38,659 bases of DNA from Nocardioides sp. GTDB taxonomy: Bacteria > Actinomycetota > Actinomycetes > Propionibacteriales > Nocardioidaceae. Shown piece by piece: positions 36,454 to 38,659 of the stretch (the first letter of the stretch is position 1; each line of letters begins with the position of its first letter). Below the pieces are notes generated by a model. It did not search any database and was not told where the DNA came from. It saw nothing but the letters and a program-made list of their open reading frames with translations. The position numbers were made by a program, and so were the translations under genes. The stretch is from positions 1 to 38,659 of the forward strand of contig NZ_JAEMSS010000015.1 of the NCBI RefSeq assembly GCF_016462705.1, read 5' to 3'.

Positions 36454-37109
36454 CCCGCTCGACGGTCCGCGACAGCCTCGGCGTGGGCGTCGCCACCGGG
36501 CTGTACGGCGCATCGTTCGGGGCGATCTCGGTGGGGGCGGGACTGTCGGTCCCGCAGACCTGCGTCCTGTCGCTGCTGATGTTCACCGGCGCCTCCCAGT
36601 TCGCCCTGGTCGGCGTGCTCGGCGGCGGCGGCTCGGCCCTGTCGGCGGCCGCGACCGCGATGCTGCTGGGGACCCGCAACACCCTCTACGGGCTGCGCGT
36701 GGGGCCGCTGCTGTCCTGGCGTGGCGTCCGCCGGGCGGGCGCGGCGCACCTGCTCATCGACGAGTCGACCGCCATGTCGGTCAACCGCGACTCCCCGGAG
36801 GACGCCCGGCTCGGCTTCCTGGTCACGGGCGGCTCGGTCTTCGTGCTCTGGAACCTCTTCACGCTGCTCGGCGCGGTCGGTGGCAACGCCATCGGCGACC
36901 CGCGCACGTACGGCCTCGACGCCGCCGTCGGTGGCGCGTTCCTCGCGCTGGTGTGGCCGCAGCTGACCACCACCGCCAACCGGGTCGTCGCCCTGCTGGC
37001 AGTGGCCGTGGCGCTCGGCCTGGTGCCGGTCACCGCGGCCGGCGTACCGGTCCTCGCCGCCGGCGGCGTGGCTCTGCTGGCGGGACTCCTGTCCCGCGGG
37101 ACGTCATGA
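36450..37109 (+). CDS. azlC: AzlC-family branched-chain amino acid exporter, large subunit
   Basis: A 219-residue membrane protein, large component of the AzlCD (LIV-E/BrnFE type) exporter for branched-chain amino acids or related compounds. Seen: SLGVGVATGLYGASFGAISV, FTGASQFALVGVLGGGG (the family signature), LLGTRNTLYGLRV, and DESTAMSV. Six or seven membrane helices. GTG start overlaps the GNAT stop (GTGA); stop overlaps the azlD ATG (ATGA). Substrate may differ from branched-chain amino acids in this family; unresolved. Confidence 0.93.
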   Translation: MTRSTVRDSLGVGVATGLYGASFGAISVGAGLSVPQTCVLSLLMFTGASQFALVGVLGGGGSALSAAATAMLLGTRNTLYGLRVGPLLSWRGVRRAGAAHLLIDESTAMSVNRDSPEDARLGFLVTGGSVFVLWNLFTLLGAVGGNAIGDPRTYGLDAAVGGAFLALVWPQLTTTANRVVALLAVAVALGLVPVTAAGVPVLAAGGVALLAGLLSRGTS

Positions 37110-37405
37110 CCTGGGCGGCCGTGGTCGGAGCCGGCGTCGGCTGCTACCTGCTCAAGCTCGCCGGGGTGTCGGTGCCGCCGAGCGTCCTCGAGCGGCCGCT
37201 GGTACGACGGGTGGCCGGGCTGATACCGGTCGCCCTGCTGTCGGCGCTGGTCGCCGTACAGGTCTTCTCCTCGGGTCAGCGACTGGTCCTCGACGAGCGT
37301 GCCGCGGGGCTGGCCGCGGCGGTGCTGCTGCTCGTCCTGCGTGCGCCCTTCCTCGTCGTGGTGGTGGGGGCCGCGCTGGTGGCGGCACTCCTCCGCCTGG
37401 CCTGA
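37106..37405 (+). CDS. azlD: AzlD-family exporter small subunit
   Basis: A 99-residue protein with three or four helices, the small partner of AzlC. Typical start MTWAAVVGAGVGCYLLKLAG, then PLVRRVAGLIPVALLSALVA and a hydrophobic C-terminus. ATG overlaps the azlC stop. Last gene of the GNAT-azlC-azlD operon, followed at once by a long inverted repeat. Confidence 0.92.
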   Translation: MTWAAVVGAGVGCYLLKLAGVSVPPSVLERPLVRRVAGLIPVALLSALVAVQVFSSGQRLVLDERAAGLAAAVLLLVLRAPFLVVVVGAALVAALLRLA

Positions 37406-37406
37406 C

Positions 37407-37475
37407 CCGGCCGGCGCTTCGTCTGCAGCTACCAGTGGGACGAGCCCACGGAACCGCAGACGAATCGCCGGCCGG
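37407..37475. repeat. Long imperfect inverted repeat with nested hairpin
   Basis: Left arm 37407-37426 and right arm 37456-37475 pair over 20 bp with one mismatch (outer CCGGCCGGCG, inner TTCGTCTGC). The 29-nt loop holds a nested stem GTGGG (37435-37439)/CCCAC (37445-37449). It lies between convergent azlD and the M4 protease gene, so it could be a bidirectional terminator, a structured RNA or a small mobile repeat. Confidence 0.75.
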
Positions 37476-37477
37476 TC

Positions 37478-37501
37478 GGTCAGCCGGTCAGCCGGTCAGC
37501 C
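37478..37501. repeat. Three tandem copies of GGTCAGCC
   Basis: Perfect 8-bp triplet repeat following the inverted repeat. The TGA of the M4 protease gene lies in the third copy, so slippage here could change the protein end. Confidence 0.8.
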
Positions 37502-38659
37502 GACGCTGACCGCGCTCCAGGCGGCAGCCACGGCCGCCCGCTGGGTCGACGCCGCCCCGAAGAGGTCGGTCGCCGCGTTGAGCGTGGCCGTCCGGGCCTG
37601 GGCGTAGGTCGTGCCCGACGTCATGTAGACCGTCAGCGCCCGGAACCAGATCCGCTGGGCCGCGTCCCGGCCGATGCCGGTCACCGTCGAGCCGTTGCAG
37701 GTCGTGGAGCTGTGCGCGACGCCGTTGATGGTCTTCGCGCCCGACCCCTCGGCCAGCAGGTAGAAGAAGTGGTTGCCCACGCCGGACGAGTAGTGAACGT
37801 CCAGGTTCTTCGTGTTGCTGCTCCAGCAGTTCGGCGAGTCGCCGTCCGCGATCGGGTTGTCCATCCTGCGGAAGCCCTGGTGCGCAGCGAGGTCGAACTC
37901 CTCGCCGATCAGGTAGTCACCCGGGTCGTTGCCGTTGGCCGCGTAGAACTCGACCATCGTGCCGAAGATGTCCGAGGTCGCCTCGTTGAGACCACCCGAC
38001 TCGCCCGAGTAGGTCAGGCCGGCGGTGTTCTCGGTGACGCCGTGCGACATCTCGTGACCGGCGACGTCCAGGCTGACGAGCGGACCGAAGCTGGTGCCGT
38101 CGCCGTCGCCGTACGTCATCTTCGTGCCGTCCCAGAACGCGTTGACGTAGTTGGAGCCGTAGTGGACCCGGTTGAACGAGCCGCTGCCGTTGCCGAAGAT
38201 GCCGTTGCGCCCGTGGACCAGCTTGAAGTAGTCCCAGGTGACGTTGGTGCCGTACTGCGCGTCCACGCCGGCGGTCGCCCGGTTGCTGTTGCTGCCGTTG
38301 CCGAACGTGGTGCTCGAGCTGGTGATCTGGGTCCCGGCCGAGCAGCCGGCCCCGAAGATCTGGCAGAAGACCGAGTCCGTCCTGTTGTTCATGTCGGTCG
38401 TGTAGGTGTTGCCGCGGGTGGAGTCCTTGAGCTGGTACGTCGAGCCGGACTGCGTGACCTGGAGCGGGACGGTGCCGCTGTAGAGCGAGTTGCCGGTCCC
38501 GTCGACGTTGACGACGCGCTCCTCGCGCCGCAGGACCTGGCCGGACCGCGCGTCGACGTACGTCGAGAGCCGGCTCGGGGTCTGGTCGGCGCGCTTGCCG
38601 ACCGTGACGACCTCCCAGGCCAGCCGGGGCCTGCCCGAGAGCGTCTCGACGACCAGGCG
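37496..38659 (-). CDS. M4-family (thermolysin-like) metalloprotease, N-terminus beyond window
   Basis: Partial secreted zinc neutral protease; the frame is open to the window edge, so the signal peptide and much of the propeptide are missing. At the edge lies the end of the FTP/PepSY-type propeptide (AWEVVTVGK, then STYVDARSGQVLRREERVV). Mature domain: zinc site HEMSH (codons 38042-38056) and GGLNEATSDIFG with the third zinc ligand Glu, DYLIGEEF, NPIADGDSPNCW, and HYSSGVGNHFFYLLAEGSG with the catalytic His region; the C-terminal helical domain ends in AAVAAAWSAVSVG. No C-terminal binding domains. An internal ATG at 38392 is not the real start because propeptide sequence continues upstream. 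Convergent with azlD. Confidence 0.94.
   Translation of the reverse strand, partial: RLVVETLSGRPRLAWEVVTVGKRADQTPSRLSTYVDARSGQVLRREERVVNVDGTGNSLYSGTVPLQVTQSGSTYQLKDSTRGNTYTTDMNNRTDSVFCQIFGAGCSAGTQITSSSTTFGNGSNSNRATAGVDAQYGTNVTWDYFKLVHGRNGIFGNGSGSFNRVHYGSNYVNAFWDGTKMTYGDGDGTSFGPLVSLDVAGHEMSHGVTENTAGLTYSGESGGLNEATSDIFGTMVEFYAANGNDPGDYLIGEEFDLAAHQGFRRMDNPIADGDSPNCWSSNTKNLDVHYSSGVGNHFFYLLAEGSGAKTINGVAHSSTTCNGSTVTGIGRDAAQRIWFRALTVYMTSGTTYAQARTATLNAATDLFGAASTQRAAVAAAWSAVSVG

Follow-up and report, generated by a model that had tools for sequence, protein, structure and literature searches.

What kind of element is the 69-nt inverted repeat (positions 37407 to 37475) that lies between two convergent stop codons in the window, a 38,659-nt stretch of Nocardioides DNA? 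As a preliminary description of this DNA had stated, it is located between azlD (37109 to 37405, plus strand; PF05437, E value of 1.1e-12) and an M4 metallopeptidase gene (37496 to 38659, minus strand, open at the window edge; PF01447/PF02868), whose stop codons are 1 base and 20 nt, respectively, from the repeat, which takes up most of the 90-nt gap between them. The same description had regarded the repeat as more than a plain terminator and had proposed a structured RNA or a small dispersed element.

The hairpin in the azlD/M4 gap

The 20-bp stem with one mismatch that had been described is real: the arms (37407 to 37426 and 37456 to 37475) are 20 nt each and 29 nt apart, and they are 95% complementary (19/20), with C37417/T37465 as the sole mismatch. 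The loop is folded, as had been claimed, but it does not form a separate hairpin; this interior (37427 to 37455), variable among the relatives described below, prolongs the stem with bulges, most clearly on the minus strand. On that strand, the 69-nt hairpin has a folding energy of −56.7 kcal/mol (z = −8.67), and none of 200 dinucleotide shuffles was equally stable; for the 89 nt around it, the folding energies were −60.6 on the plus strand (z = −7.8) and −66.9 on the minus strand (z = −8.5). Rfam 15 gave no match over the hairpin at the gathering score, and at a loose threshold all Rfam matches were far below gathering, many of them to microRNA models. A terminator scan covering loops of 3 to 8 nt reported no site at the hairpin, and the hairpin has no terminator T-tract.

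The part that is shared with other copies is a core of 51 nt (37416 to 37466, minus strand; 52 nt in most copies) with the conserved arms TTCGTCTGC (37418 to 37426) and GCAGACGAA (37456 to 37464; both as read on the plus strand). The outer stem extensions (plus-strand positions 37407 to 37415 on the left and 37467 to 37475 on the right) are not a conserved part of the family, and the nine extra pairs of the window copy fall outside the family core.

Among the M4 loci of 29 relatives, azlD adjoins the M4 gene in 15, with gaps of −4 to 122 nt. None of these 15 sites carries a window-type hairpin, and the element is therefore optional there; by eye, several of the gaps hold unrelated hairpins and several hold no visible one. 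At the orthologous site of another species (L047, 1372 to 1494), a run of GGCCCAACTCGACCC-like repeats looks like a further palindromic family. Two other observations concern the window itself: GGTCAGCC occurs three times in tandem at 37478 to 37501, at the end of the M4 gene beside the hairpin, which on the minus strand gives consecutive TGA triplets, and a c-di-AMP riboswitch (RF00379, 56.8 bits) is present at 1012 to 1168 on the minus strand, directly upstream of the minus-strand open reading frame (ORF) at 4 to 987.

A dispersed hairpin family in Nocardioides

Plain BLAST with 89 nt at an E value of ≤0.001 found in the hairpin's own genome only the copy itself; at E ≤ 1 in 145 relatives, it was uninformative, with matches in all 145. 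A search with the arm sequence, allowing ≤2 mismatches, revealed sites with two arms facing each other about 45 nt apart; these sites and the covariance model described below identify the hairpin as a repeat. The paired arm recurs in the same genome and in relatives, as expected for the small dispersed element that had been suggested. The single arm is not enriched (94 one-arm matches versus 174 for the reversed pattern, at ≤2 mismatches), and a search of 96 genomes for perfect 9-nt arm pairs located two copies in the genome of the window and four in that of another species. In 11 aligned copies, the arm is conserved and the interior is variable yet still folding, and most of these copies have a low folding energy compared with shuffles.

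A covariance model built from these 11 copies, the window copy among them, was run on 215 Nocardioides genomes and matched the window copy at 37412 to 37468 on the minus strand (55.6 bits, E value of 5.9e-12). The first genus-wide search scored the best ≤25 candidates per genome under strict filters and a later one scored ≤150, and the copy numbers given here are lower bounds because of these limits. Among the best ≤25 candidates per genome, strong matches (E < 1e-5) were present only in the window's genome (G000), N. islandensis (G026), the metagenome-assembled genomes (MAGs) TY_ISSM_2_bin.27 (G243) and RYN_195 (G240), and G171; single weak matches in many other genomes were taken as chance. 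There are at least 9 copies in the window's genome (88% complete; window copy included), about 33 or more in N. islandensis, at least 28 in TY_ISSM_2_bin.27 (57% complete), and at least 13 in N. agariphilus; the family is also present in RYN_195, N. iriomotensis, and three more Nocardioidaceae/Propionibacteriales MAGs. In N. islandensis some copies are in tandem, once as four consecutive copies about 74 nt apart. Most copies were recovered on both strands, because the palindromic arms read alike.

Thirteen pattern matches outside the Nocardioidaceae/Propionibacteriales (50 to 55 nt, with differing interiors), from Kuenenia, Desulfobacteraceae, Spirosoma, Lachnospiraceae, Arthrobacter, Bradyrhizobium, Rhodovulum, and a proteobacterium, were set aside as chance or other repeats. 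A Kuenenia MAG (L182, L194, and L226) has a multicopy hairpin (GATTCGTCAGAATTC..) with GTAG nearby, possibly a standard GTAG-REP whose arm happens to look similar, and a Desulfobacteraceae MAG (L185 and L258) has repeated GATTCGTCTGATT runs on two contigs. Viral contigs gave zero matches to the hairpin pattern.

The hairpins of this dispersed family have conserved arms, a variable interior, and a near-constant length. We pooled 98 copies from 11 sources, 97 of them distinct (L219 repeats L080). They share the arm CGATTCGTC[T/A]GCG, and the consensus reads CGATTCGTC[A/T]GCG...C[T/A]GACGAATCG. A 52-nt core is found in 86 of the 98; the 12 copies without a usable one, including the window copy, were set aside before core counts, and the duplicate L219 was removed before the nearest-neighbor, tag, T-tract, and pair 9/44 counts (leaving 85). 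When 48 to 56 nt were allowed in the pattern, 64 of 65 Nocardioidaceae/Propionibacteriales matches were 52 nt long and one was 53 nt. Core positions 1 to 8, 10, 12, 43, and 45 to 52 carry 1.7 to 2.0 of 2 bits, and positions 0, 11, and 53 carry 1.4 to 1.5.

The preliminary description had named a single-copy sequence without compensatory changes in relatives as the result that would speak against it. The covariance search in related species found copies in several Nocardioides genomes, and core pair 9/44 shows compensatory change (A-T in 46, T-A in 30, other in 9; n = 85), with pairing in 78 of 86 copies where the column frequencies predict 42. Both forms of this pair occur within G026 and within G243, and in 5 of 13 shared-site copy pairs the species differ at it on both arms. 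In the 11-sequence seed alignment alone, no pair is changed on both sides and there is no covariation; the compensated pair becomes visible only once both subfamilies are included, and pairing outside the core is little or not above column expectation (86 other copies). In a concerted-evolution test, 53.7 of 85 copies had their nearest neighbor within their own genome (mean of 20.0 and maximum of 34.5 after shuffling). Between the two copies at each of the 13 shared sites (11 matched through common neighboring genes and the two with L227 through their flanking sequence, by eye), however, 7 to 24 of the 29 interior positions are different, which points to a mixture of vertical descent and turnover.

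Most copies are located at gene 3′ ends. Counting 93 of the 98 copies (four weak matches and L219 were left out), 69 have a gene 3′ end ≤40 nt away, 23 lie between two convergent 3′ ends, and 24 have a gene 5′ end ≤40 nt away; genes were called by a crude rule based on ORFs and codon positions, and some copies "inside" genes may be ORF errors. A T-tract (≥5 T in the 9 nt after the stem) follows 0 of 85 copies on either strand, and there is no excess of flanking direct repeats that would indicate target-site duplication (4 offsets, k of 3 to 6, 85 copies). This location and the nearly fixed length, together with the link to a nuclease-like gene described below, go beyond what the preliminary description expected.

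A gene bracketed by hairpins

A DUF559/AbiEi-like gene of N. islandensis (L071, 561 to 1508, minus strand) has family hairpins on both sides, three in all within 1.2 kb; its neighbors are genes that we take, from their translations, to be clpX and valS. N. agariphilus has a gene 65% identical to it, also beside a clpX end, with two family hairpins upstream and one past the stop codon (two of the three seen by eye). In both species, one hairpin is located just upstream of the likely start codon, and the 3′ end of the gene also has a copy.

The protein has an AbiEi-like N-terminal part and a DUF559/MTES_1575-like C-terminal part. Matches of the N. islandensis protein to known families are weak, including that to the PADLOC AbiEi model, and those of its homologues are also weak, though clearer: across 33 homologues, DUF559 was matched in 12 (best E value, 9.8e-6), MTES_1575 in 6, and AbiEi_4 in 4 (E ≤ 0.01), and the weak profile matches of the family are to PF04480, PF18741, and PF13338. 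Among 33 aligned sequences (L286 was excluded for its internal stop), E205 and D237 never vary, and E251, D253, H257, and D266 are conserved at ≥90%; this D...ExD...H pattern is expected of Vsr-like PD-(D/E)XK nucleases. The product is probably a PD-(D/E)XK nuclease. When solved structures were searched with a profile, the sole match was a weak one, to an endonuclease-like protein (E value of 0.26), and a structure model from a two-sequence alignment was too poor (mean pLDDT of 46) to give a usable match in a fold search. Relatives of the protein were found in none of the viral contigs and none of the plasmids searched, and among phages there was one distant match (29.5% identity) in an unannotated record from human feces; no link to viruses or plasmids emerged.

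Homologues at E < 1e-40 are present in 76 of 215 Nocardioides genomes. We tested 30 gene loci, the best scoring from these 76 genomes with one locus per genome, and two-sided hairpins sharing an arm word of ≥8 nt were present at 20 of 30, versus 2 of 29 M4 peptidase control loci. Matching-arm hairpins therefore bracket the gene in most tested loci. The N. islandensis locus scores zero in this strict test, as the arms of its 3′ hairpin are imperfect; under a more lenient criterion (≥4 shared 7-mers, applied to the gene loci only), 24 of 30 loci were bracketed. The window's genome (88% complete) has four homologous places, none bracketed by GATTCGTC hairpins and one with a lone TTCGTCTGC arm. 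Two of these places (L260 and L264) lie between directly repeated hairpins of a very different kind, and the arrangement is therefore not peculiar to one arm. In TY_ISSM_2_bin.27, with its 28 copies, there is no gene homologue at E ≤ 0.001 in an assembly 57% complete.

Arm sequences vary among lineages, most of which have TCGTGTGCC and others TCGTCCGCC, GTTG-types, or ATTCGTC[T/A]GC. Hairpins with the TCGTGTGCC arm are themselves dispersed: 61 of 215 genomes together hold 544 copies, with a maximum of 96 (in G020), and a reversed-pattern control gave 0; 73 of the 75 plus-strand matches listed are exactly 44 nt long, although 38 to 54 nt were allowed. The gene (E < 1e-40) was found in 9 of 9 genomes with ≥20 such copies, in 16 of 18 with ≥10, and in 36 of 61 with ≥1. 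The remaining 25 of the 61 have no homologue at this threshold, among them G059 and G009 with 10 copies each, and 40 genomes have the gene and no TCGTGTGCC hairpin.

For the second arm type we fixed a prediction beforehand: TCGTCCGCC hairpins should be concentrated in G226, G050, G206, G232, and G205, in which the gene has TCGTCCGCC flanks (on one side only in G226). The prediction held in all five, with 11, 9, 13, 6, and 14 copies, respectively. Six or more copies were found in 5 of the other 210 genomes; by coordinates, three of these (G043, G041, and G202) have the gene between two TCGTCCGCC hairpins, and G010 and G170, with 13 and 7 copies, have no homologue at E < 1e-40. At least one TCGTCCGCC match occurs in 32 of 215 genomes, against the nonzero background of a GC-rich pattern (13 control matches). 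Counting gene-bracketing copies as well, the 15 genomes labeled as TCGTGTGCC flanked contain 309 TCGTGTGCC copies and 1 TCGTCCGCC copy, and the five TCGTCCGCC genomes contain 53 TCGTCCGCC and 8 TCGTGTGCC copies, 7 of these 8 in G232, which has two genes. The dispersed arm type of a genome thus tends to match, and agrees with, the flanks of its gene. On the protein tree, arm type changes 7 times for 7 states, versus ≥11 in 300 label shuffles (labels were assigned by eye, with a one-sided hairpin in L262, L271, and L275 and poor evidence in L285 and L289); neither the tree agreement nor the Fisher tests are independent of phylogeny, because a gene and its flanks are inherited as a unit and the genomes share ancestry.

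Some of the gene loci show further features. In 10 of 34 loci (L262, L268, L269, L272, L277, L279, L282, L288, L311, and L312), the flanking sequence retrieved with the gene includes what its motif suggests to be a GlmS-like C terminus; the 3′ end of glmS is a known insertion spot of other elements. At L308, two identical TCGTGTGCC hairpins enclose a stretch that contains small ORFs and a duplicated gene end, and L307 has two similar ORFs with a hairpin after each, so that hairpins seem to accompany local duplications at these two loci.

Known palindromes and rival explanations

REP-like palindromes are common bacterial repeats, and, to our knowledge, Y1 tyrosine transposases are the only dedicated enzymes for them. 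Like REP/REPIN sequences with their RAYT genes, the Nocardioides hairpins are dispersed extragenic palindromes in many copies, some of which bracket a gene, but the bracketed gene is DUF559/AbiEi-like and does not encode a Y1 HUH tyrosine transposase, and the hairpin is longer, single, and of nearly fixed length. A GTAG (or CTAC) tag is present within 8 nt of the stem base in only 2 of 85 copies, and Y1_Tnp (PF01797, RAYT type) was detected in 0 of 8 hairpin genomes versus 5 of 14 control genomes. PMC3733652 describes REP/REPIN as short, species-specific dispersed palindromes in tens of copies, mainly downstream of coding regions and some of them bracketing a dedicated gene; the only dedicated REP enzymes that it discusses are Y1 tyrosine transposases, and its text does not contain the word Actinobacteria. 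The same text describes one large group, the CGTC-tagged REPs, as dispersed extragenic palindromes apparently without a dedicated transposase, with CGTC as an unpaired end tag, a stem of 8 to 9 bp, and a loop of 4 to 5 nt (PMC3733652). The Nocardioides family resembles this group in being a dispersed extragenic palindrome with CGTC in its arm (TTCGTCTGC), but here CGTC is paired inside an arm of about 10 to 12 bp around an interior of about 28 to 30 nt.

Other systems differ in further ways. Neisseria uptake sequences occur as short inverted pairs at gene 3′ ends, where they serve as terminators; the Nocardioides hairpins share this arrangement, but their single arm is not enriched. The boxes of integron attC sites (RYYYAAC/GTTRRRY) were present in 0 of 85 copies in either orientation, and, unlike DNA transposons or MITEs, the 85 copies show no target-site duplication. 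The bracketed protein weakly matches the AbiEi and DUF559 families (type IV antitoxin-like and Vsr-like restriction endonucleases). Among the titles and abstract openings listed by the literature searches, none links DUF559/AbiEi proteins to hairpin repeats, and those listed for Nocardioides palindromic repeats or REP plus nuclease do not name the gene-hairpin association.

The best explanation, in our view a probable one though well short of assured, is that the window hairpin is a solo copy of a REP-like family of palindromes of nearly fixed length. This family would be part of a genus-wide group of hairpins whose arm types are tied to a hairpin-bracketed DUF559/AbiEi-like gene, the protein of which would spread or maintain the hairpins. 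The mobility of the hairpins and the role of the protein, which might nick a folded strand, bind as a regulator, or be protective, are inferred. In the version that we favor, the AbiEi/PD-(D/E)XK-like protein would cut at the arm, which it would recognize in the form of a folded single strand, of a cruciform, or of paired sites in double-stranded DNA; cutting would spread or maintain hairpins and move the protein's own hairpin-bracketed gene, as RAYT is thought to do for REPs. Solo hairpins would be nonautonomous products of such a REP-like system, which appears to be the most economical account. The window copy itself probably serves azlD and the M4 gene as a 3′-end or termination hairpin, in a gap that in several relatives holds unrelated hairpins. 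More tentatively, and as a reading that we rate somewhat below even odds, a hairpin-specific nuclease of the PD-(D/E)XK (DUF559) type, and not of the HUH or DDE type, might copy or move hairpins of nearly fixed length in trans along with its own bracketed gene, with solo hairpins retained as 3′-end elements and with enzyme and arm codiverging across the genus; this would constitute a new class of mobile element.

Several of the same observations can be read differently. The copies could be bidirectional transcription terminators or mRNA 3′-end stabilizers that multiplied through ordinary duplication and through gene conversion, and the nuclease-like gene would then be bracketed only because terminators insulate it. 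The location of the copies, mostly near gene 3′ ends and for 23 of 93 between two of them, their very stable folding, the other hairpins seen by eye at the azlD/M4 site in several relatives, and the local duplications with hairpins at two loci would all fit, and intrinsic (rho-independent) terminators share the position just past stop codons (69 of 93 copies within 40 nt). However, the T-tract is missing from all 85 copies, a terminator could work without a conserved arm sequence or a near-constant length, and arm type tracks gene-flank type across genomes, and we regard this explanation as unlikely.

We consider it improbable that the hairpins are operators, at which an AbiEi-like regulator would bind the paired arms, separated by about 40 bp or close to four turns of the helix, both next to its own gene and at targets dispersed elsewhere. 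In favor of this are the binding of AbiEi antitoxins to inverted repeats in their own promoters, the AbiEi-type matches of some members of the family, the near-constant arm spacing, and, in N. islandensis and N. agariphilus, a hairpin just ahead of the probable start codon. However, the 3′ end of the gene also has a copy in both species, most dispersed copies are near 3′ ends, with 24 of 93 at 5′ ends, and the interiors of the 11 aligned copies still fold despite sequence change, which an operator would not need. Least credible to us, and very unlikely, is the reading as a structured RNA, either regulatory or small, for which many loci would code. The compensated pair and the low folding energies relative to shuffles in most of the 11 copies are in its favor, but there is no Rfam family at the gathering score, the neighboring genes look functionally diverse by eye, and the palindromic arms read alike, so that most copies are matched on both strands.

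Returning to the REP-like family, the bracketing of a nuclease-like gene by hairpins suggests that hairpins are spread by a system based on an enzyme that is not known to do this. If this is true, the DUF559/AbiEi-type gene matched to dispersed hairpins would be a second enzyme class for REP-like repeats, and genes of this type would gain a concrete, testable role. Many Nocardioides genomes supply their own matched pair of gene and hairpin, with other arm types as mismatched controls.
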